A stretch of DNA of 64,000 nt from Ignisphaera cupida (lineage in GTDB: Archaea; Thermoproteota; Thermoprotei_A; Sulfolobales; Ignisphaeraceae). A model generated the notes under the pieces. It did no database searches. It had not been told where the DNA came from and saw only the letters and a list, made by a program, of their open reading frames with translations. Below are positions 10,117-41,966 of this stretch, piece by piece (position 1 is the first letter of the stretch; every line of letters begins with the position of its first letter). The position numbers and the translations under genes were made by a program. Where the stretch lies: contig NZ_JASNVW010000006.1 in NCBI RefSeq assembly GCF_030186535.1, forward strand, positions 1 through 64,000, in the 5' to 3' direction.

Positions 10117-11202
10117 TTAAATACTTAACGGATCCACATAAACATACAGTGGTTTTTCCAAAGGGTAAAGCCTCAAAACACCAGTGCCCTGACCAGAAAA
10201 CTTCATGGCGTTTTCCACACCTTTTCTACTTAAATTGAGGTACTTAGCAAGTTTAAGCCAATAGCTTTGCGATGCAGATGAAAGTGCCATGAACATTCCA
10301 CAGTTTTCTACAATAGAATTAGCGTAGGGATTTAAATCATCTATGCTTTGAGTAGCCATTGCAATAGCAATTCCAAAACCTCTACCATATCTTACAAGAA
10401 CATTGATAAACTCATCAATAGCATAGTGAGTTAAATGCCATAGCTCATCCAATACCACAATTCTATTGATACCGCCTCCGAAAGATGCGGCTGATCTGCG
10501 TAATAACTGTTTCATTATATAGAGTATTATTGTTGCTGAAGCCTTCTTATCCAGGAGAAAGATTTTGTGAAGATCTATGATGATGTCCTTGTTCAACATC
10601 ATTTCTAGAACATCGGCTGTGGTACTATATACTTTAAAAACATTGAGAACAGCATCCAGAGACTCATAATCTTCAAGTAGCCAGTAACTAGGTATAGCCT
10701 CTCCCAAAATGGTTTCATCACATTGTCTACAAAGCCTTGTTACAACATCAAGCAGCTGCTCTCTTACATATGCAGGCATCTTAAAAATAGTGTTGATAGT
10801 GTTAACAAATAGCTGTGCATCATATTTAGCACCTACCTCATCGCCACAAGTGCATAGAGGTATGTAATTAGCTGTAACATCCCAAACATTAAATGTTCTT
10901 CCTAGAAAGAGCTTCATATAGCTTTCATACTCATTTTTTATATCAAAAACTGTTATTGGAGCACCAAATTTTGTGCTAAGTCTCGAAACAATTACTGAAA
11001 CCGAGACACTTTTTCCAGAGCCTGATGGACCCACAATAAGTATGTGACTTGATGGTGATTTGGTAACACTCCAATGTATTTTTCTCCCAAAGATAAGGTC
11101 AATACCTATGTAAACACCATTACTAGTATCTTCAATGTCGAGAGTTTTTGAAGGTGGTAAAAGTAGTGGCATAGCATAGGCAAAAGAATCTAGTAATATC
11201 AC
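10117..11202 (-). CDS. VirB4/HerA-type ATPase, C-terminal motor part
   Basis: 361 aa from GTG 11202. Walker A GPSGSGKS at residues 58-65, Walker B IVVLDELWHL near 245-254, and a sensor ATQS near 280: the VirB4/TraC/HerA group that powers DNA or protein transfer. The linker before Walker A (YIGIDLIFGRKIHW) is VirB4-like. It lacks the VirB4 N-terminal domain, which is instead in the gene just upstream, one base away in another frame. CedB, the DNA-import ATPase of Sulfolobales, is a relative of this type. Role here is inferred, not shown. Confidence 0.8.
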   Translation of the reverse strand: MILLDSFAYAMPLLLPPSKTLDIEDTSNGVYIGIDLIFGRKIHWSVTKSPSSHILIVGPSGSGKSVSVSVIVSRLSTKFGAPITVFDIKNEYESYMKLFLGRTFNVWDVTANYIPLCTCGDEVGAKYDAQLFVNTINTIFKMPAYVREQLLDVVTRLCRQCDETILGEAIPSYWLLEDYESLDAVLNVFKVYSTTADVLEMMLNKDIIIDLHKIFLLDKKASATIILYIMKQLLRRSAASFGGGINRIVVLDELWHLTHYAIDEFINVLVRYGRGFGIAIAMATQSIDDLNPYANSIVENCGMFMALSSASQSYWLKLAKYLNLSRKGVENAMKFSGQGTGVLRLYPLEKPLYVYVDPLSI

Positions 11203-11203
11203 C

Positions 11204-11842
11204 CTAGATTTTTCCCCAACGAAAATTGATTATCTGAAGAGCTTTTCCAACATCTCTAACTCTCTTTAATGAAATTCCCAGGACCTGCTTAGCTATTTGA
11301 GGTATGTTAATAAGCATATCTTCATATGTTCTAGCATCATCACATATAATGGCTGTTAATATTGATGTTTCTACTGGCATTACCCCACTAAGTACTCTTT
11401 TCCTAATCTCTATAAGTCTCTCAACAAGACTCCTAAGTCTAGTATTCGTTCTATCGCTTTCAAGCTCAACAAGCTTCATTTGAAGTTTGCTATTTATTTT
11501 TGAAAGATAGCTATCAGGGCTCAACACACCTGTACTGGATACTGTCATTAGAATGCATCCAGGTGGCGCCAACGTGTTGATATACCTCTTTAAATGAGTA
11601 AGAAAATCCACATATTCCATTTCCTCAATTCTAACAAAAGAATCTTCAATAGTGTACAAGGCAACAAGTTTTGCATTAGAGTTGTTGTGACATCTATATA
11701 CACTTTTTCTAATCTCTTCACAAACATAACCACTTTTATGCTCAATAATAGGAAAAAGCCTTATAGTTTTACGAACTAGCTTGCTAACGTGTTTTAATAA
11801 GCTTTTGTACCAGTAAAAGCTATCTAAGATCTTTTTACCCAT
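11204..11842 (-). CDS. VirB4-like N-terminal domain protein (upstream half of a split ATPase)
   Basis: 212 aa, no known motif on its own. Position and content suit the N-terminal domain that precedes the motor domain in VirB4 proteins: FLTHLKRYINTLAPPG, then ISLKRVRDVGKAL near the end. The stop (11204-11206) is followed by one base and the GTG of the ATPase. Removing one base of the A5 run (11209-11213 on the given strand as T5) would fuse both into one protein of about 575 aa, close to CedB/VirB4 size. It overlaps the upstream propeller gene by 19 bases. True split, programmed frameshift and sequence error all remain possible. Confidence 0.6.
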   Translation of the reverse strand: MGKKILDSFYWYKSLLKHVSKLVRKTIRLFPIIEHKSGYVCEEIRKSVYRCHNNSNAKLVALYTIEDSFVRIEEMEYVDFLTHLKRYINTLAPPGCILMTVSSTGVLSPDSYLSKINSKLQMKLVELESDRTNTRLRSLVERLIEIRKRVLSGVMPVETSILTAIICDDARTYEDMLINIPQIAKQVLGISLKRVRDVGKALQIINFRWGKI

Positions 11843-14097
11843 CTTCTTAGCCCAGTTATAGCAGAGATTTTTAAAGCGATTCCATGAATGAAAGCAATAG
11901 CCTTACTCAAATCAAAAGGAAACATAACAAGTTTAGCGCCGCAAGGCTCAAGGATTGCAAGATCTTTATGGCCACGGACAATATCATCACCATTAATAGG
12001 CTCCTCAACAACTTTTTCAGAATGTGGCATAACTATAAAGGATTGTGTAGGAAGAAGAACGGTTAAAGCAATGTTGTCACATTCATTAGCTATAACCACT
12101 TCTAGTAAGAACCCATTTCTGTATATTACCCTTGAAGACTTAACAACACCACAGCTCGTTGGCAATAGCACCTTGTGCGAAAGCCCATGGGAGAAAGTGG
12201 CACTGCTTTTTTCATGTAGTTCAATGTTAAGAGAGGTGTTGTGTTGAATGGGTATTTCAATAAGGCATTCATCATTTAAGGGTTTCACAGTTAGAAGTAG
12301 CTTTACATATTCACAATCACCTAGTTTTAAACAGCCATTGTCAATGGTATATAGCTTGTTGCTACACAAAATCTTTAGTTTAACATCAGCATGTTTCAGG
12401 CTATTAACATTGTCTATGCATATAGTGTCATTTTCAAAGTTTATTGATGGAGCAATATTAACAAAATGAATTCTATTCATAAACACTAGTTGATGAAGTG
12501 CTACAAAACCCTTTTCTTTATTTTCATCAATAAGACATGTCATTATCGCATCTAAGCTACTTATTCTCTGCATATCTTCAATACACTTTCTAATGCTATG
12601 GCGCAATTTTTCGTTGCATACTATGGGAAAGCCATTTAAAATTAAAACATCTTCGATAATTTTCGGTTTTTGAAAATAAAATTCAAATTTCTCATAATTT
12701 ATCTTTAAACATTTCTCAATGGAGTCTATAACTCCATGCACAGTTACATTAAGAGTTAACTTCTTTCTTGAATCAGTAAATATAGATGCTTTTGTGGAGA
12801 TGGTGCTCAGACGTTTGAACCTTATATGAACATTTTCTGATGGGAAAATCTTTATTGGATATCCAGGTGTAAAAGATTTTAATAATATTGCAAGGCCTTG
12901 GTCACTTCGCAATTTTAGAAAAGCAGGTTTATAGCTAAATAGATATTTCACATCTATCCTAAGCAATCTTCCCAATAAATCTATACATAATATGTTTTTG
13001 CTATCTGCATTAATGCAGTGAACCAGTGTTGTTGGTGCCTCATATAACTTTTCTATATTAATTTTTTTACTAACAGTTTCTATGGTATAAATAGCAACTC
13101 TATTATTACTCAATAAAAATAGCTTAGAATCAGAAACAATAGCATCTTTTGCAGATGTTTTCATAGAAATTAAAAAATCATTTTTTAGATCCATCAATTC
13201 TATCTTTTCATTGTTTTTCAATATAACATAACCACTTGCTATATCCATGTAAATACTTGTTTCACTGTCAATTTTTCTCAAAATTTTAAATGAATTTCTC
13301 TTTGTATTGTATAACACTAAGTTATTGTCTATTGTACCAAGAACAACATTATCATCTATAAATGTTGCATTCCTTAACGGATGGGGAAGCTCATATATAT
13401 AGGCGCCATTTTTAGAAAAGTTAATTAGCATTGTTCTATTTAAAGAATTTATGGTTATAGTATTTAAGCCCATGTAAACATCTGTTATGGTAAAATCATC
13501 TCCTTTATAATCATGAGCATATCCATAGAGGTTATCACTAATAATTAGTAAAACATTATCTGAGGTTATACACTGTAGAATTTTATACCCATTCATTTCT
13601 TTATATATAACACGTTTACACTTCATAATCTCCTCAGGTTGTGTAGGATTCTTTACAATGGCAAGACTTCCCTGATTTTTTACGACATAGCTATAAATCC
13701 CTTGGGGCAAGATATAATCTGGTTTTTCAATAATGTATTCATCTACAGTTCCATTTACATGAAATTGAAGAATCCTAGCCTCTCTCTGATTTTGTGAAAC
13801 CAGAATACAGCTGTTGTCGGTATAAGTTAAAATCTCTTCATAGTTTTGCAAATTAAAATGGAAGCTCTTTTCATTTTTTTCAAGTGCAATACTGTAAACC
13901 CTGAGTTTTTCACTATGTTTTTGTATGAATGGCGCATTTGAGAATAGAAGAATATTTGAATACAACATTATATGAGGATGAGAAATTAGAGCAGGATCTA
14001 ATATTCTAAGTAAATTCCATTGATGTGAATATAAAACAAGTTTGCTATTTCTTGTTAAAACTGATTCGCCAAGTTCTATAGCGATGCTATGCTTCAT
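11824..14097 (-). CDS. Large hypothetical protein, predicted beta-propeller
   Basis: 757 aa, no family recognised. Residues about 1-400 consist of short beta-rich repeats with alternating polar and hydrophobic strands, suggesting a WD/PQQ-like beta-propeller. Several cysteines come in pairs 10-17 residues apart inside these repeats (for example HCINADSKNILC), as if stapling strands. The C-terminal 350 residues look beta-sandwich-like. No clear signal peptide; a weak hydrophobic stretch occurs near 735. ATG 14097 sits two bases after GGAGGAT. First gene of the operon with the split VirB4-like ATPase, so a structural or sensing partner of that motor is plausible. Confidence 0.6.
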   Translation of the reverse strand: MKHSIAIELGESVLTRNSKLVLYSHQWNLLRILDPALISHPHIMLYSNILLFSNAPFIQKHSEKLRVYSIALEKNEKSFHFNLQNYEEILTYTDNSCILVSQNQREARILQFHVNGTVDEYIIEKPDYILPQGIYSYVVKNQGSLAIVKNPTQPEEIMKCKRVIYKEMNGYKILQCITSDNVLLIISDNLYGYAHDYKGDDFTITDVYMGLNTITINSLNRTMLINFSKNGAYIYELPHPLRNATFIDDNVVLGTIDNNLVLYNTKRNSFKILRKIDSETSIYMDIASGYVILKNNEKIELMDLKNDFLISMKTSAKDAIVSDSKLFLLSNNRVAIYTIETVSKKINIEKLYEAPTTLVHCINADSKNILCIDLLGRLLRIDVKYLFSYKPAFLKLRSDQGLAILLKSFTPGYPIKIFPSENVHIRFKRLSTISTKASIFTDSRKKLTLNVTVHGVIDSIEKCLKINYEKFEFYFQKPKIIEDVLILNGFPIVCNEKLRHSIRKCIEDMQRISSLDAIMTCLIDENKEKGFVALHQLVFMNRIHFVNIAPSINFENDTICIDNVNSLKHADVKLKILCSNKLYTIDNGCLKLGDCEYVKLLLTVKPLNDECLIEIPIQHNTSLNIELHEKSSATFSHGLSHKVLLPTSCGVVKSSRVIYRNGFLLEVVIANECDNIALTVLLPTQSFIVMPHSEKVVEEPINGDDIVRGHKDLAILEPCGAKLVMFPFDLSKAIAFIHGIALKISAITGLRRWVKRS

Positions 14098-14198
14098 ATC
14101 CTCCCTTATTTAGCAAAGCCTTATATAATGTACATAGCTATTAGCCTAGCTTCTTATAATACCTTTTCATATGATAATGAGGAAACGGTGAATTATTT

Positions 14199-14534
14199 TT
14201 GACTCCTCGTGAAAAGTTGTTGATGATACTAAATGCATTGAAGGATAGAATAGCATCTCCAAGTGATGTAATCTCTATAACAGGGTTGCCAAGATACGAA
14301 GTTTTAGCATCTTTCCATATTTTAGAAGCGTTGAATATAGTTGAAGTAGTTTACATTCGAGGTAATTACAAAATCTATAGGCTTTCTGATGCAGGTAGAA
14401 AGCTCTTAGAGATTTTGCTAAATAATAAAGACATTGTATTTACTGTCGAGTCTAGTGAAAAAGTTCAAGATGCAAATTCAGTAAATCACGTAACAACTAA
14501 TAGTGTAGTTGAAGCTTCTACAGTTGCAACTTAA
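14199..14534 (+). CDS. Winged-helix DNA-binding protein
   Basis: 111 aa from TTG 14199, with GGTGA seven bases upstream. Residues about 1-72 form a winged helix: SPSDVISITGLPRYEVLASFHILEALNIVEVV with wing YKIYRLSDAGRKLL. The last 35 residues are polar and probably disordered. Divergent from the propeller/VirB4-like operon across about 100 bp containing TATA-like elements for both directions, so it may regulate that operon. Exact family not recognised. Confidence 0.7.
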   Translation: MTPREKLLMILNALKDRIASPSDVISITGLPRYEVLASFHILEALNIVEVVYIRGNYKIYRLSDAGRKLLEILLNNKDIVFTVESSEKVQDANSVNHVTTNSVVEASTVAT

Positions 14535-23045: not shown

Positions 23046-23516
23046 ATGTACAAGGCAAAAAGACCTCGTTGTATAGAAAAGATTAGAAAAGGTTTAAGTG
23101 AAGCTGTCGTAATTATGATAGTGATACTAATAGCTGTTGTAGTGGGTTTTGCAATTAAGTCTTGGTATGATGCACAAGTGAGAAAGTTACCAGCTACAGA
23201 TATGGCTGTTGCTGAGTGGAGTGCCACATTTAGCCAAGGCAAATATATAGTTGCAGTCAATGTTAGAAATAATTTGGATAGAAATTTGCAAGTTATAGGT
23301 TACAGAGTAACACTTGCAAATGGCTCAACAGTAAATAACGTAAACATAATACCTGCACTTCCACAAACACTTAATTTGAAAAGTAGTCAAAGCTTTGTAA
23401 TAACTATACCTGTAAAATCCTCATCAGATTCACCAATATCTGTAGAAGTACAGGTACAAGACACATCAACAGAAACAACAGCATGGATCAAGGCAGTTGG
23501 CGGAATACAAATGTAA
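23046..23516 (+). CDS. Archaeal type IV pilin-like protein (class III signal peptide)
   Basis: 156 aa. Basic N-terminus ending in RKG at 14-16, then LSEAVVIMIVILIAVVVGF: a PibD-type prepilin site (cleavage after Gly16) followed by the hydrophobic pilin helix. The rest is beta-rich with Thr/Ser/Asn repeats, like a pilin head domain. GGAGTG precedes ATG 23046 and TTTATAAAG lies about 28 bases before. It is followed by a secretion ATPase and a TadC-like membrane protein, so it is probably the subunit of a small pilus or adhesion filament. Confidence 0.85.
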   Translation: MYKAKRPRCIEKIRKGLSEAVVIMIVILIAVVVGFAIKSWYDAQVRKLPATDMAVAEWSATFSQGKYIVAVNVRNNLDRNLQVIGYRVTLANGSTVNNVNIIPALPQTLNLKSSQSFVITIPVKSSSDSPISVEVQVQDTSTETTAWIKAVGGIQM

Positions 23517-23660
23517 TGGGATTTTAATGCTATTTACTACGAATGAATTTAAAACAAACTTTTATTTTTAATTCTTATCAATTAATAAATTTGGATACTA
23601 ATTCAAATAATGCAAAATTCTATTCCTTATGCTTATTACCAAGTAATGGCGGTTTAGATA

Positions 23661-25082
23661 ATGAAGTTAAGCATTAAGAATCTCGTAAAGCATTTAATCA
23701 TTTTTTCACGATTACCTAGAAGAAATACGAAGTATGAACTTGGAAGGGACTCTACTAGGTATATACCTATTGTTGGTAATGTTTTGTTTAGTTATGTTGT
23801 TGGTGCTTACAAGATTGATATTACTAATGATAATGGTGAAACGATATATGTAGCAACTCCTCTAATAGACAAACATATTTTTGATTCTATAGAGAGTAGG
23901 CTAGATGATATTATTGCGCTTATGAGGAAAGGTAATGATATAGGTGATGTACTTGTTGAAGTAATTGGTATTGATAGAGGTAACGTGGCAGAAGCTATTT
24001 ATGCCTTAAGATCTGTTACTGGTTATGGAAAGTTACAGATCTTTCTTGATGATCCATACATAACAGATATTTCTATTGTTGGCCCTGGTCATGTGTGGGT
24101 TAAGCATTCATGGGTTGAGCAAAAAATTCCAGAGGTGGACTTTATAAGAACTAATATAGTTTTGGAATCATTTGACGAGGTTGTAAAGCTTCAGCAACTC
24201 ATAGCAACTAAATGTGGTACGTATATATCAACATCGAATCCAATAGTTGATACAGCTTTACCACCTAAAGACGGTGGTCATAGAGTTCACATGGTTGCAT
24301 ATACAATTTCAACATCTAGAAGACCTGAAATAGTGATTAGAAAGAAGATGCCTAATCCACCAAGTATTTATCACATGGTAAACCAGGGTGTTTTGCCTAA
24401 AGCTGTTGCAGATTTATTCAAGGTTTTAATACGTGCAAGGGGTTCAATGATAATAGCTGGACCGCCTGGTTCAGGCAAGACAACATTACTTAGAAGCCTG
24501 CTCTACTCCTTTGTTCCTCCTGGATGGAAGGTAGCAATAATAGAAGATACTGGTGAAATAGATCCTCCACCAGGCTCGTCATGGGTTAGATATACAACAT
24601 TTGAACTTGGAGTTGTAAAGATAGATCTTTTTGACTTGGCCAAAGCTGCTTTAAGATCATCGGCAACAAAAATTATTGTTGTTGGTGAAACAAGAGGAGA
24701 AGAGGCAAAGGTTTTGGTAAATGCTCTACTTGCTGGACTTGGAGGATATTCAACATTTCATGGATCTAGCCCAGAAGAGGTTATTACAAGGTTTACAGGT
24801 CCACCAATTAACTTGTCACCTGTGCAAGTAGCAATGTTTAATTTTATAGCTATTATGGGCTATGGTGAAAAACCTAAGAGGCAGCTAAAAAGGCTTGTGG
24901 AACTTATTTATAATGCTGAAAAAGGTTATATGGATTTTAATATTGTGTGGGATAGGGAAAAGGATGGACTAAATATATCATTTGAAGAGCTTGTTAAGAG
25001 GATTAGGAGATGGAGTGAGCTAAGAATTAAGACAGAGATACCAATAGAACAAATATTAAATACTGGTGATGTACTATCATGA
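23661..25082 (+). CDS. Type II/IV secretion (pilus assembly) ATPase
   Basis: 473 aa. Walker A GPPGSGKT at 267-274, Asp box IIEDTGEID near 293-301, Walker B-region KIIVVGETRGEEA near 337-349 and His box STFHGSS near 364, all diagnostic of GspE/VirB11/TadA ATPases. It hydrolyses ATP on the cytoplasmic face to add pilin subunits. Its last codons overlap the next gene (ATGA at 25079-25082), coupling it to the membrane platform protein. The about 100 N-terminal residues form the usual variable domain. Confidence 0.92.
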   Translation: MKLSIKNLVKHLIIFSRLPRRNTKYELGRDSTRYIPIVGNVLFSYVVGAYKIDITNDNGETIYVATPLIDKHIFDSIESRLDDIIALMRKGNDIGDVLVEVIGIDRGNVAEAIYALRSVTGYGKLQIFLDDPYITDISIVGPGHVWVKHSWVEQKIPEVDFIRTNIVLESFDEVVKLQQLIATKCGTYISTSNPIVDTALPPKDGGHRVHMVAYTISTSRRPEIVIRKKMPNPPSIYHMVNQGVLPKAVADLFKVLIRARGSMIIAGPPGSGKTTLLRSLLYSFVPPGWKVAIIEDTGEIDPPPGSSWVRYTTFELGVVKIDLFDLAKAALRSSATKIIVVGETRGEEAKVLVNALLAGLGGYSTFHGSSPEEVITRFTGPPINLSPVQVAMFNFIAIMGYGEKPKRQLKRLVELIYNAEKGYMDFNIVWDREKDGLNISFEELVKRIRRWSELRIKTEIPIEQILNTGDVLS

Positions 25083-26539
25083 ACTTTGTCAATGTTGTGA
25101 TAAGTAGGTATAGGAGGTTAGTGGCTTTAGCAACAGGTAATTTAGGTAGATACAAAAAAGCCTTTGAGGAGATTAGAACAGCTTTGCTATTAACACCTGT
25201 GGCTTTTGTAGTTCCACTGCTCCTAGCTTTTCTTGGGGGTTTGCAGGATACATTAATGCTTGTCTTTTTGGGTACAGGTCTTGGCATATCTATATGGATA
25301 AAGGTTATAGATACCCTAACCTCAATTTCCAGTTATAGAAAGAAGCTTGATGAAGAACTTCCATTCTTTGTTTTAGAGGCCACAGCAGTTAGCAAAACAG
25401 GTTTGGAACCTGTGGAGTTGCTGAAATTTATAACAAATAGTAAAGTTCTATATGCTTTTAGTGAGCTTGGAAAAAGATTTTTAGGATTATTTGAAATTTA
25501 TGGAGTTTTTGAATCCTTATCATTTCTAAGCAGATTAGCAGGTGATAGAACAAGGCTTTTTCTATCAGAATACTTAGCATCGCTTTCCTCTGGAACAGCT
25601 CTTCAGTATTTAAGAGATAGAGCAATGGATTTTGTTAAAGGTATTGCAGTTAATGTTGAAAGAGCGCTCAACAGCAAAATAACCATATCTATATTAATTG
25701 CAATTCTATTTTCTATAGCTCCTGTTATACTTATTTCTATGTCAACAATGTTTATGGTAAACATTGAGCAGGGAACTGTAAGCGAGAATTCAACAATTAT
25801 AAATATAGTATCTGCTTTGATAGTTCTTGTATCAGCTCTTACATGTTTTATTTTACCCGACTATCCCTATGTATCGAAAGTTATAATAGATAAGAAAATG
25901 TTCATGGCTTATAGAGCACTATTTACATTTGGTACAATAGTCTTGGCCTTTCCACCACTAATGCTTGTACTTGATTTAGCTGATTTAAATACATTTAAAA
26001 CCTATGCCTTTTACAGCTCTATTGCAGCTATAGCTATTGGTGTTTACCCATTTATAAAAACTCTTACTTCTTTAACCATTAGAATAGACGATGTTGTAGA
26101 GTCTATGGCTAATCACATAAGAGTTTATAGAACAATGTACTTATTTAAATCTAATAAACTTGAGAATCTTGCAAAAAAGAGTACAAGACTATGGCTTATA
26201 GATTATTTAAATGAGTCCATAGAGTTTTTCAAAACATTTGGAGATACTGATCCATATATATTCGATATATTCACAATGTTCGTATTTGAAATTCAAAGAA
26301 TGCTAAGAAAAACAATGTTTTATATCTTATTGGTAATCGCAGCTATAGTTCTAGCACCATATTTATCAACAGCAACAATAAGTCTTGGTGCAGGTTTAGG
26401 AATGACCAAATCAATTATATCAATGGCGTATATAGCTACCACTTCATTTGGTTTTGTAGCAAGCAAAATAGCAATGGGAAAAAACATATCAACATTACTA
26501 CCAGGGTTTGCAGCACTGCTTTTCACATTAACACTATAA
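25079..26539 (+). CDS. TadC/GspF-like pilus assembly membrane protein
   Basis: 486 aa. Two TadC-type halves: each has a cytoplasmic helical bundle (first with LDEELPFFVLEATAVSKTGLEPVELL) and hydrophobic segments near 38-75, 198-225, 235-260, 275-330 and 415-485. It is the membrane platform of archaeal type IV pili and archaella, working with the ATPase encoded just before. Start ATG overlaps the ATPase stop by four bases. Confidence 0.85.
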   Translation: MNFVNVVISRYRRLVALATGNLGRYKKAFEEIRTALLLTPVAFVVPLLLAFLGGLQDTLMLVFLGTGLGISIWIKVIDTLTSISSYRKKLDEELPFFVLEATAVSKTGLEPVELLKFITNSKVLYAFSELGKRFLGLFEIYGVFESLSFLSRLAGDRTRLFLSEYLASLSSGTALQYLRDRAMDFVKGIAVNVERALNSKITISILIAILFSIAPVILISMSTMFMVNIEQGTVSENSTIINIVSALIVLVSALTCFILPDYPYVSKVIIDKKMFMAYRALFTFGTIVLAFPPLMLVLDLADLNTFKTYAFYSSIAAIAIGVYPFIKTLTSLTIRIDDVVESMANHIRVYRTMYLFKSNKLENLAKKSTRLWLIDYLNESIEFFKTFGDTDPYIFDIFTMFVFEIQRMLRKTMFYILLVIAAIVLAPYLSTATISLGAGLGMTKSIISMAYIATTSFGFVASKIAMGKNISTLLPGFAALLFTLTL

Positions 26540-26731
26540 AATTAGTTAATGCATTATTCATAGACATTTGTTGATGGTAATTGAATAAGCTTAAGATTTT
26601 CTGTACTTCAGATGCAAGATAAGATTCTTGAAATCAAAAACAAGCAACTCATTTTATAGAGCCTAGTCATAAGGTGGAGATAACAAAATGTTTGCAATAC
26701 CTTATAGCATCTCTAGGTAGGTGATGTTGAA

Positions 26732-27901
26732 TTGGATTTTGCTCTTCCATATAGCATAAGGTTGTTTAAGGATCTTGGTTATGTTGTTAAAGGTGTTTCA
26801 AATTTTGATAAGGAATCCATTCTAATTGATGTTGTTGCTCAACCCAAGATAACACTTACATCAATTGGTGTAGGAAAGATTGTTGAAAGTATCAATTCTT
26901 GTGCTGAACCTGTAGTTGTGGGGAGTAAAGTTGTTTGTGAAGCAAATGGTTTTTCTCATACTGAATTTGGTATAGCTGTTAAAAGGTCGAAAAAAGGAGC
27001 AATTGTTAAATCTAAAAATTTTATAAAATCATGTGAAAAGGTTGCAACAGCTAAAATTGATGGTGCATTTATTGTAGCATGTTATGAGGATAAAAGCACC
27101 TCTATTTATTTAGCAACTTACGATGAACTAAAACTATTCGATAGAATATATAAAAAAGCTAGGCCAGATAAATGTAGTATAGGCTATAAAGCAGCTGCTT
27201 GTACCTTTGAGGATGGTAGAAGTGTAATTGTTGCACCACCAAGATTGATAGAAGTTGGTATGCCAATAGATGTAATAGCATATCAGGAGCCATTTGTATA
27301 TGGTTTTTCAAAGAATTGGATAGTGACTGTAGATGTATATTCGTTGGATATAAGACCCTGTATAAAAACAAAAAATGAAGTTAGATTTGTGGGATTTATA
27401 CAAGATTTACCAGTGTTTGAATCAAATAATAATATATACACATTAGAGGGGGGATCATTAGTAAAGAAAGCTATTATAGCAGGTTATGTATCAGCTTATG
27501 GAAATATAGTTGTGGATGATAGTGATGTAGTTCTTAAGATTATGAATGAATATGGTGAAATACTCTATAAAATACCAAAGGATAGTAACAGCAAATGCAT
27601 AGCTATGAAAGATGGTGTTGCATGTTTTAGAAAAACATGGATAGGTCTATTAGATTTTAATAGAAAAAGTAGAATACACATTGAGTTAAATTCTAACGGT
27701 ATTCACAAAATAAGTGTGAATACTGAAATTTACATAGTAATAAGGTACAGGAATAGGGAATTCTATGTGGAACCATTTAAAAAAATTGAAATATGTGATG
27801 AAAATGAAAATGTTTTAAAAGATCAATTATCCACACTTGAAATAGAACATCTTCTAGGAACTAATAACATTCTTGTTGAATCTAAGTTAAAAACTCACTA
27901 G
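26732..27901 (+). CDS. Hypothetical protein with paired cysteines, predicted beta-propeller
   Basis: 389 aa from TTG 26732, six bases after GGTGAT. No family recognised. Beta-strand-rich repeats about 45 residues long carry cysteine pairs at 57/69, 101/117, 148/157 and 289/298, as if each blade had an internal disulfide. No signal peptide or membrane span. It follows the pilus locus on the same strand after a 190-bp gap. Its pattern recalls the 757-aa protein beside the VirB4-like ATPase. An accessory role to the pilus is inferred from position only. Confidence 0.55.
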   Translation: MDFALPYSIRLFKDLGYVVKGVSNFDKESILIDVVAQPKITLTSIGVGKIVESINSCAEPVVVGSKVVCEANGFSHTEFGIAVKRSKKGAIVKSKNFIKSCEKVATAKIDGAFIVACYEDKSTSIYLATYDELKLFDRIYKKARPDKCSIGYKAAACTFEDGRSVIVAPPRLIEVGMPIDVIAYQEPFVYGFSKNWIVTVDVYSLDIRPCIKTKNEVRFVGFIQDLPVFESNNNIYTLEGGSLVKKAIIAGYVSAYGNIVVDDSDVVLKIMNEYGEILYKIPKDSNSKCIAMKDGVACFRKTWIGLLDFNRKSRIHIELNSNGIHKISVNTEIYIVIRYRNREFYVEPFKKIEICDENENVLKDQLSTLEIEHLLGTNNILVESKLKTH

Positions 27902-40589: not shown

Positions 40590-41966
40590 CTACTTTAGGA
40601 ATTTATCTTCCCATTTCCTTGCGAGTTCAACACTTTGTGAAACATCTATGAATAATTTACTTGCCTCCTCAACATCTTCTTTTCTTATTTCATCTCTTCC
40701 TTTTTTCTCAGCAATAATTCTTGCTGGCTGCATTAATTGAATTGCATATCTCAGACTTCTTTCACTTGCAATTTTAACTAAAAGTTCTAAAGCATCTTTA
40801 GAAAGCTTTACCTCTTCCTCATCGGCTCTAATCAGTATTATTTCCCTCATTTCATCTGTTGTATACGGTCTTACAGTTATAATTAGAAGCCTATCGAGAA
40901 GATCTAGTGGTACACCATGAGGACCTTCAAGCTCTGTGCCACGTATCTTCGTTATACCCCTGTTTGTAGCCATTATAAGTATTGGTGAGAACTCACTCTC
41001 CATTACTCTACTTAAGAAGCTAAACGCCTCTATATCAAGCATATGAACATCATCTATAAACAGAACTCCTGGAACAAGAGTAACCTTCCCTTCACTTAAT
41101 GCCTTCTTAACTGATTCGTCAACAGCTCTTCTAATCTCTGGATCTATTTCTTTTTCTTCCGTACCTACACCAATTAATGATATTACCGCCCTTTTCTGAG
41201 CTGCATATGCTTCATCTAAATCGTGAAGCGTAACTGTTCTTACAATCTCTTTCTCCTTGAATATTTTACCTTTTGGCATTTCCTCTAAAACCCTCGTTGT
41301 TTCAACATCATAGTATTTTGCTTTTTCAACACCCTTCACTCTTCCAAGTTTGAAAACCTCACCAGAATCAGCATCTATGCTTATCAAATCACCTCTTCTC
41401 ACACCTAATTGAGCAAGCTGTGTCGCAATAGCTTGATCAACTTCAAGTGTTTTCTCTTCATCTTTTGTAGCAAGAGTTATTCTTGCACCTCTAGGCACCT
41501 TTACATACGGATTGAATGGGTGTGAAGCCAATGCAAATTTTATTTCTTTTACAACACCTTCATAAACTCTTCTAAATTCTCTTATCCTAATTCCAATAGC
41601 TCTTCTAACAGCTCTCATCAAAATTTCTGTCTTCTTAATCTCACTAGAGTAAAGCTCTGCTCCATTTATCATTACAAATGGAGTGTCTTCACCAAGTTCT
41701 CTTGCTATTGCTATTGCTAATGCTGTTTTTCCAGAACCTGGTGGACCAACAAATAATATTCCTCTTCCAGCAAGCTTACCTTCTTTAATCATTTTAACAA
41801 CAACGCCAGCAGCTTTTCTAGCCTCTAGTTGTCCAACAAGACCATCAGCTATGAATAAAGGCTCTCCTTTTTCGTCTAAACCTAAGCCTCTTATATGACT
41901 GTGAGCACTTATTCTTTTTAGCATCTCTCTTTTGGATTCCTCCTTAACTTCTCTGATCATACTCAA
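40590..41966 (-). CDS. RuvB-like AAA+ ATPase (TIP49 / RuvBL family)
   Basis: 458 aa from TTG 41966 with GGTGA six bases upstream. Starts with the family's AHSHIRGLGLDEKGEP; Walker A GPPGSGKTAL near 78, the OB-like insertion domain II at about 125-290, Walker B LFIDDVHMLD near 306, and sensor-1 ATNRG near 336. Pontin/Reptin-type hexameric ATPase with chromatin, snoRNP and repair roles in eukaryotes; archaeal role poorly known. The close C/D sRNA gene is of interest because eukaryotic RuvBL assembles box C/D RNPs. Confidence 0.92.
   Translation of the reverse strand: MSMIREVKEESKREMLKRISAHSHIRGLGLDEKGEPLFIADGLVGQLEARKAAGVVVKMIKEGKLAGRGILFVGPPGSGKTALAIAIARELGEDTPFVMINGAELYSSEIKKTEILMRAVRRAIGIRIREFRRVYEGVVKEIKFALASHPFNPYVKVPRGARITLATKDEEKTLEVDQAIATQLAQLGVRRGDLISIDADSGEVFKLGRVKGVEKAKYYDVETTRVLEEMPKGKIFKEKEIVRTVTLHDLDEAYAAQKRAVISLIGVGTEEKEIDPEIRRAVDESVKKALSEGKVTLVPGVLFIDDVHMLDIEAFSFLSRVMESEFSPILIMATNRGITKIRGTELEGPHGVPLDLLDRLLIITVRPYTTDEMREIILIRADEEEVKLSKDALELLVKIASERSLRYAIQLMQPARIIAEKKGRDEIRKEDVEEASKLFIDVSQSVELARKWEDKFLK

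Follow-up and report, generated by a model that had tools for sequence, protein, structure and literature searches.

The question raised by the locus studied here is which machine is served by a VirB4-like ATPase whose gene is packed against that of a giant protein resembling a beta-propeller. The locus (positions 10117 to 14097) lies in the window, which is the whole stretch of 64,000 nucleotides analysed, positions 1 to 64,000 of the forward strand of contig NZ_JASNVW010000006.1 of Ignisphaera cupida (assembly GCF_030186535.1). A preliminary description of this DNA had proposed a distinct transfer or surface machine with a propeller partner foreign to known systems. On sequence and predicted structure, the proteins of 361 and 212 amino acids (aa) make up a CedB in split form, CedB being the VirB4-like ATPase in the DNA importer Ced of crenarchaea. 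The 757-aa protein appears to be related to UpsX, a DNA-exchange factor encoded in the mating-pilus (ups) operon of Sulfolobus, and would belong to the UpsX superfamily by transitive homology. The best explanation, which we regard as probable, is that the locus encodes a variant Ced motor unit, a Ced/Ups hybrid in which the split CedB shares an operon with an UpsX-superfamily propeller that would dock it at a pilus or membrane site.

Results

A split CedB motor

In what follows, f codes label families (f1 being that of the window), g genera, G genomes and L loci. The genome of the window (G000) has 1.74 Mb and is 99.9% complete, and the genus is represented by 11 searched genomes including it. 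The 361-aa protein matches Pfam AAA_10 and DUF87/HerA, and has the Walker A and B motifs of a HerA/VirB4-type motor, with invariant columns found in its alignment. Its best NCBIfam family is DNA_import_CedB (E 1.5e-37, 129.5 bits, profile positions 243-588 of 590). Since f2 and Sulfolobaceae have CedB as one chain of about 560-600 aa, the 212-aa and 361-aa proteins together are taken as one CedB; it is fused in f2 and consists of two chains in f1 and f4.

The 212-aa protein gave no significant match in Pfam or NCBIfam, and its Pfam matches FliD_C and Bd37 (E within 0.065-0.2) were dismissed as noise. When its AlphaFold2 model (mean pLDDT 84.1) was compared with the PDB by Foldseek, all seven matches at E<=0.001 were chains of R388 type IV secretion system (T4SS) structures with TrwK/VirB4, two of them TrwK alone. 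The protein thus shares the N-domain fold of R388 TrwK/VirB4 (Foldseek E 3.4e-4, TMq 0.53), as had been supposed from the sequence. Unlike in TrwK/VirB4, the N domain of the window is a separate polypeptide, and sequence identity is 12-15% among the Foldseek matches with E<=0.001. A TrwK/VirB4 chain was also first in VIA-align (Z 8.2, root-mean-square deviation 3.7, 141 aligned); because short helical hairpins from unrelated proteins obtain up to Z 7 in that comparison, the assignment of the VirB4 fold rests on Foldseek.

In a tree of motor domains (44 rows, with the C-terminal 400 residues used for proteins longer than 480 aa), Sulfolobaceae CedB falls into a clade with the propeller-linked motors (support 99/97), and CedB encoded next to CedA forms a separate clade (100/97). 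VirB4-type (five rows), HerA (one) and CedD (one) sequences fall outside the CedB clades. The window motor does not group with the VirB4/TraC-type conjugation ATPases, which are a separate clade in this tree. Grouping of Sulfolobaceae CedB with the CedA-adjacent CedB was rejected by the approximately unbiased (AU) test (p-AU 0.0013). Thus, the HerA/VirB4 motor of the preliminary description is confirmed and placed in the CedB clade. A CedB on a contig titled Euryarchaeota archaeon (L252) groups with Sulfolobaceae CedB, which may reflect a mislabelled bin or transfer.

Linkage of the propeller gene to cedB

The genes for the propeller, the 212-aa and the 361-aa protein are side by side in all 11 genomes of the genus and in six of the seven other family genomes searched, far above chance; in G013 a contig end truncates the ATPase gene. 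Propeller and CedB genes are adjacent in 17/18 genomes of f1, and in G015 no such locus was found. CedB is next to the propeller in 22 of the 24 propeller loci of f2 (without genus g16) and in four of the five loci of f4. In total, the propeller gene is directly beside cedB in 43/46 loci of f1, f2 (without g16) and f4, and the three misses (G166, G183 and G071) run into contig ends. The gene pair, for which a search in other crenarchaea had been advised at the outset, therefore recurs in three families, and homologues of the ATPase do occur beside the propeller gene. In a profile scan of the genome contigs, the window-type ATPase alignment gave nothing and the fused CedB gave five loci, four of which, lying on contigs equal in length to ones already collected, were not re-counted in this tally.

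In half of these loci (23/46; 19 in f2 and 4 in f4), the same operon includes a T2SSE ATPase and a TadC/UpsF-like protein. A small protein before the ATPase has a class III prepilin start (e.g. RKG/VSDLVV) in 20 of those 23 loci; the automatic motif search did not flag it in G193, G180 and G185. In G012, a member of f1, the propeller gene is still preceded by the last part of the UpsF-like gene, and thus the window locus appears to be this operon minus the pilus genes. At L292-L297 and L299, the operon T2SSE ATPase has 753-887 aa versus the usual ~420-500 aa, that is, ~300-400 extra residues.

The propeller protein and UpsX

The AlphaFold2 model of the 757-aa protein is nearly all-beta (pLDDT 83.1, pTM 0.61). 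Residues ~2-390 match many propellers (VIA-align, Z up to 11.6), residues ~415-727 are mainly further strands, and a helix at 730-747 contains a conserved ALK motif. The prediction supports a beta-propeller with a beta-sandwich, in agreement with the first impression of a propeller-like protein. The PDB propeller matches are generic and indicate no function. No significant Pfam or NCBIfam match was obtained, and no signalling or DNA-binding domain was recognised; Pfam Peptidase_S78_2 (E within 0.065-0.2) and a PDB sequence match to Cas2 (E 0.035) were set aside as noise. A simple Kyte-Doolittle scan found no membrane segment, as expected for a protein like UpsX, soluble and without transmembrane segment. 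Within this fast-changing protein, the cysteines C361/C371, C560/C578/C589/C595 and C649/C673 are invariant in the genus. Cysteine pairs align among the f4, f2, f1b and window proteins (C361/C371 in all three, and also C578).

A relationship to UpsX was suggested by several profile comparisons. UpsX was the only NCBIfam family for one f2 propeller, weakly (E 0.0045), and the same scan gave no UpsX match for the 757-aa window protein, L045 or L164. In 41 genomes, the NCBIfam UpsX model found two Sulfolobaceae UpsX (609 and 571 bits), two lone relatives (9e-7 and 3e-6) and the propeller of G030 (5.5e-4). A profile of 19 Sulfolobaceae UpsX sequences (those of 30 UpsX loci that met a strand/position filter, the other 11 being unused) was run on all open reading frames (ORFs) of the loci collected by then and on their reversals. 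It gave 17 matches at E<0.02, comprising the two UpsX, the two lone UpsX-like proteins and 13 propellers, and the first decoy appeared at E 0.12. The top propeller match (2.3e-13) was L045 of G012, which belongs to the same family as the window and lies at an L15e locus syntenic with it.

In hhalign comparisons (reversed controls <=0.4%), f4 propellers with L045 matched UpsX at 98.9% (E 2e-17), the alignment running collinearly from the propeller almost as far as the C-terminus. The f2 propellers matched UpsX at 97.1% (E 7e-11), and two f1 sequences outside the genus at 88.6% (E 2.6e-6). The f4 propellers with L045 in turn matched the window genus at 96.7% (E 3e-10, 665 columns). These values supersede an earlier run with cruder alignments (92% for f2/f4 and 38.6% for 17 f1 rows, versus UpsX).

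The reciprocal search used A8, a 16-row propeller profile that contained neither UpsX nor any sequence of the window genus. When it was run on 31 Sulfolobaceae genomes at E<=10, it gave four matches, all inside the UpsX gene. Among the 11 genus members, A8 also matches the C-terminus of the window-type protein in G004 (6e-6) and G010 (4e-5), and in none of the other nine. Of 229 genomes sampled in the class, at least 51 have a match, all 51 in the order of the window; this is a lower bound, because most window-type propellers score below A8. Thus, the notion that the propeller partner is foreign to known systems is probably incorrect, since its relatives match UpsX of the ups operon.

The window locus can be compared with the ups operon of Sulfolobaceae (UpsX-UpsE-UpsF-UpsA-UpsB). 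Both have an SSO5209 gene and, if the transitive link holds, an UpsX-superfamily gene, and the T2SSE, TadC and class III prepilin genes are likewise found in the f2/f4 relatives of the window locus. Unlike in the ups operon, the gene order is different, CedB is in the operon, the T2SSE ATPase of the relatives is not a sister of UpsE, and the window locus has no pilus genes. Because UpsE/UpsF-type genes are absent at the window locus, we call its protein UpsX-like and not UpsX. In two Sulfolobaceae genomes checked, upsX and cedB are at separate places. Lone UpsX-like genes for 718-aa proteins occur in two f3 genomes (L111:6792-8948 and L112:8311-10467), where CedB lies beside CedA.

The SSO5209 neighbour

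The divergent winged-helix gene that had been noticed beside the propeller gene corresponds to a 111-aa ORF matching NCBIfam SSO5209 (E 1.9e-21, 75.5 bits; cut-off 140), and it is the single SSO5209 match in the genome of the window. The family matches 35/41 genomes, nearly always with one strong copy, and only two Sulfolobaceae pass the cut-off. An SSO5209 gene is present at the propeller locus in 16/17 f1 loci (in G004 it is ~3 kb off), in 18/24 f2 loci and in 0/5 f4 loci, and it is next to the ups operon in all four Sulfolobaceae loci examined. This shared neighbour is evidence independent of the propeller alignment.

Ced components elsewhere in the genome

As had been remarked before, no CedA gene is next to the window locus. 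However, a gene for a CedA-like protein (459 aa, six hydrophobic segments, 121 bits, cut-off 330) is present on contig 1, adjoining a gene for CedA1 (90 aa, two segments, 100.8 bits versus a cut-off of 100), as a search elsewhere in the genome, also recommended earlier, revealed. The CedA model matches 36/41 genomes, including that of the window and 10/10 other genus members, and its curated cut-off is passed by only two of the 41. The other two matches of the 361-aa motor in the genome are HerA-like and CedD-like. The window genome therefore shares with Ced, as known from Sulfolobales and Aeropyrum (CedA, CedA1, CedB and CedD), a CedB-clade ATPase and CedA-like, CedA1 and CedD-like genes. Unlike in Ced, its CedB is split into two ORFs and linked in an operon to an UpsX-like propeller, without adjacent CedA.

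These genes bear on the distinct machine first proposed, namely a VirB4 motor with a propeller and without the Ced channel. The separation of CedA from the locus fits that proposal, as do the related propellers of other lineages whose genes lie near those for VirB4-type ATPases and pili. However, because the genome encodes CedA-like and CedA1 proteins at another place, the missing neighbour does not imply a machine without CedA. A CedA-like gene is found throughout the genus, the motor falls within the CedB clade together with Sulfolobaceae CedB, and the remaining motor matches resemble HerA and CedD; we thus consider a distinct machine very improbable. Overall, the motor, the VirB4 N domain, the propeller and the gene pair of the preliminary description have stood; its CedA-less machine has not, nor, probably, has its unfamiliar propeller partner.

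The Ted system of Thermoproteales, according to the available part of PMC9905601, has in common with the system of the window a VirB4-type motor, a CedA-like protein and pilin components. Unlike the window locus, Ted loci as described there have HerA and ParA neighbours and, in some genera, Rad50; the word 'propeller' is absent from that paper. A conserved ORF of 961-972 aa directly adjoins CedA1-CedA in 4/4 f1 loci examined (L113:8259-11177 on the minus strand, L119, L255 and L257). The 972-aa ORF of L113 was dropped as a new Ced component, its NCBIfam assignment being a DEXH helicase (PRK13767, ligase-associated DNA damage response helicase). A type IV pilus (T4P) ATPase gene ~8 kb from CedA in the window genome was likewise dropped as part of an ups-like operon; no TadC profile match or prepilin start is adjacent in the stretches of G000, G005, G014 and G003.

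Organization of the window and other propeller loci

ORF calling gave the three overlapping or abutting minus-strand genes at exactly the coordinates first reported (Table 1). The overlap of the 757-aa and 212-aa genes and the gap of 1 nucleotide between the 212-aa and 361-aa genes give an operon-like arrangement, and the overlap may couple translation of the propeller and CedB-N genes. On its two sides, the locus is flanked by genes for ribosomal protein L15e and a Trm10-type methyltransferase (Pfam/NCBIfam). A TIP49/RuvB-like AAA+ protein is encoded at 40590-41966 of the minus strand (Pfam E 9e-138).

Table 1. Features of the window and of contig 1 of the same genome
Feature	Position	Strand	Basis
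CedB-type ATPase half, 361 aa	10117..11202	-	Walker A GPSGSGKS, Walker B with D252/E253; NCBIfam, Pfam, tree
CedB N-terminal half, separate 212-aa protein, predicted VirB4 N-domain fold	11204..11842	-	AlphaFold2 and Foldseek
Predicted 757-aa beta-propeller (~residues 2-390) with beta-sandwich-like C-terminus and final helix	11824..14097	-	AlphaFold2, VIA-align, profiles
Overlap of propeller and CedB-N genes, 19 nucleotides	11824..11842	-	ORF coordinates
Divergent intergenic region between propeller and winged-helix genes	14098..14198	.	No A(N)TTTC motif in propeller orientation
SSO5209-family winged-helix protein, 111 aa, divergent	14199..14534	+	NCBIfam, under curated cut-off
Second locus: class III prepilin-like protein	23046..23516	+	IRKG/LSEAVV then hydrophobic stretch
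Second locus: T2SSE pilus ATPase, propeller-associated clade	23661..25082	+	Profile and tree
Second locus: TadC/UpsF-like membrane platform	25079..26539	+	E 1.2e-13
Second locus: short propeller homologue, 389 aa	26732..27901	+	Profile E 4.1e-15 and 1.5e-12
CedA-like and CedA1 genes	G000 contig 1, ~178.5-180.2 kb		NCBIfam models
CedD-like ATPase	G000 contig 1, 661-2337		E 2.7e-65; 221 bits, under cut-off 600

A second locus with pilus genes (23046-27901, plus strand) lies ~9 kb from the propeller/CedB locus; G001 is the only other genus member in which a similar one was seen. The ATPase of the second locus of the window has its nearest relatives in f2-g16 (66% identity to G189). In a T2SSE tree (6 of 71 rows dropped: two duplicates, two short, one long and one degenerate), the operon T2SSE ATPases form a clade of their own that includes this second-locus ATPase.

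A propeller gene lies 0.6-2.6 kb from an ATPase with VirB4-type best NCBIfam matches in 4/4 f2-g16 loci, in 1/3 f8 loci and at a second locus of G001. T2SSE genes are present in five of these six loci (L305 of G001, L186, L189, L190, L192 and L195). The VIRB4 profile was built from five loci that it labels, and the VirB4 type was therefore verified by NCBIfam for all six. At the six propeller loci of f9, no VirB4-type motor is beside the propeller; G150 has a CedD/VirD4-like ORF at a distance of ~5 kb, and G146 a short VirB4-like fragment. The propellers of the VirB4-type lineages match the f2 propellers at 97.2% (hhalign).

Discussion

Several results weigh against a Ced motor unit with an UpsX-type propeller. 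The 361-aa protein scores 129.5 bits versus a curated NCBIfam cut-off of 700, and the motor is encoded by two ORFs, not by a single-chain CedB above that cut-off; we therefore describe it as a split variant in the CedB clade, and not as a member of the NCBIfam equivalog. A position of Sulfolobaceae CedB just outside the propeller-linked set was not rejected (p-AU 0.072). At six loci where CedB adjoins CedA, neither a propeller nor an UpsX-like gene is nearby, and thus Ced seems to be functional without the propeller in other lineages. The UV motif A(N)TTTC, described for Sulfolobus ups promoters in the available part of PMC5817253, was found in 1/15 regions versus 3.1 expected; it is not enriched and so lends no support to a UV promoter. 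As for the propeller, the window-genus sequences (with G014) compared directly with UpsX gave 1.7% in hhalign, that is, nothing, and the link is transitive. Propellers of the VirB4-type lineages reached 10.8% versus UpsX and 8.5% versus the window genus, and the reciprocal search found no match in 27 of the 31 Sulfolobaceae genomes. The conserved propeller cysteines have no aligned counterpart in UpsX. Finally, the operon T2SSE ATPases and Sulfolobaceae UpsE as one clade were rejected (p-AU 0.0008).

Part of this evidence would suit a generic propeller, unrelated to UpsX and placed beside CedB by an inherited accident of operon structure. Such a protein would be expected to give a negative direct comparison and to lack the cysteines in common with UpsX, and propeller identity between families is mostly 10-20%. 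However, the linkage to cedB is kept in three families, the UpsX profile and the reciprocal search are specific, the alignment extends beyond the propeller into the C-terminal half, and an SSO5209 gene is the neighbour in both settings. We therefore regard a generic propeller as unlikely.

Because the operon ATPases do not group with UpsE, the operon pilus is not shown to be Ups, and its descent from Ups is rejected by the AU test. It follows that either UpsX-type genes became associated with different pili or the pilus motor was exchanged in Sulfolobaceae. One possible history has no ancestral Ups-Ced operon, and in it UpsX-type genes were recruited independently beside different type IV pilus operons. 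The separation of the two ATPase groups and the presence of propellers by other pilus loci with VirB4-type motors agree with this history. In contrast, the CedB tree puts Sulfolobaceae CedB with or next to the propeller-linked CedB, and SSO5209 is common to both kinds of locus. Independent recruitment, to which we give a little less than even weight, is compatible with the function that we propose.

For the variant Ced motor unit, our preferred reading, the following mechanism may be considered. The first gene of the operon would give a soluble propeller/beta-sandwich protein of the UpsX superfamily, and CedB would be made as polypeptides of 212 and 361 aa. Acting as a scaffold, the propeller may hold the CedB ring against the inner face of a contact pilus or of the CedA channel, and this docking would couple cell-cell contact to DNA import. 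In the genus of the window, the adjoining pilus genes may have been lost or moved, the UpsX-like and CedB genes having stayed together. The propeller is taken as a partner of CedB because the phenotypes reported for upsX and Ced can be combined with a near-obligate gene pair. In the available part of PMC3892339, an upsX deletion of Sulfolobus acidocaldarius has wild-type-like pili and aggregation but shows only about half the usual increase in DNA exchange upon UV, and the membrane fraction of UV-treated cells contains about 35% of UpsX (a corrigendum, PMC5221435, corrects one strain, one image and a claim on the main promoter of the operon). Ced components including CedB and CedD are required for DNA import, according to the available part of PMC11868833. 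Together, these data suggest that UpsX works directly with the DNA-import motor.

Instead of being a structural adaptor, the propeller could have a regulatory or sensory function, concerned for example with CedB synthesis or with DNA damage. The incomplete effect of the upsX deletion on DNA exchange and the divergent winged-helix gene would be in keeping with such a role. However, UpsX moves partly to the membrane after UV, the scans recognised no signalling or DNA-binding domain, and the overlap and order of the genes may fit a stoichiometric partner better. A regulatory role thus seems rather unlikely, if less so than a generic propeller.

Conclusions

UpsX is described as unique to Sulfolobales and without homologues in the available parts of PMC4187195 and PMC2910488, and other Crenarchaea are said to lack ups pili genes in that of PMC11868833. 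The main text of a survey of T4P in archaea (PMC4858521) contains none of the words propeller, Ups, CedB and VirB4. No paper on an ups operon in Ignisphaera was found in the open-access literature, and in the available parts of the open-access papers on UpsX and propellers the word 'propeller' is used for the archaellum. If the link to UpsX is true, UpsX would acquire a fold and membership of a wide family, with CedB as its likely partner, and the way in which contact through pili is tied to DNA import could be addressed by a protein-interaction test in the genetically tractable Sulfolobus. More tentatively, UpsX-type propellers may serve generally as adaptors between type IV pili and VirB4-class DNA motors (CedB in three families, VirB4/TraC-type motors in others), and crenarchaeal DNA import would then be the work of a composite T4P-T4SS machine; we think this somewhat less likely than independent recruitment. 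The two halves of such a machine have been treated as separate systems, and following up the recurrence of the gene pair has led to a bridge between them.

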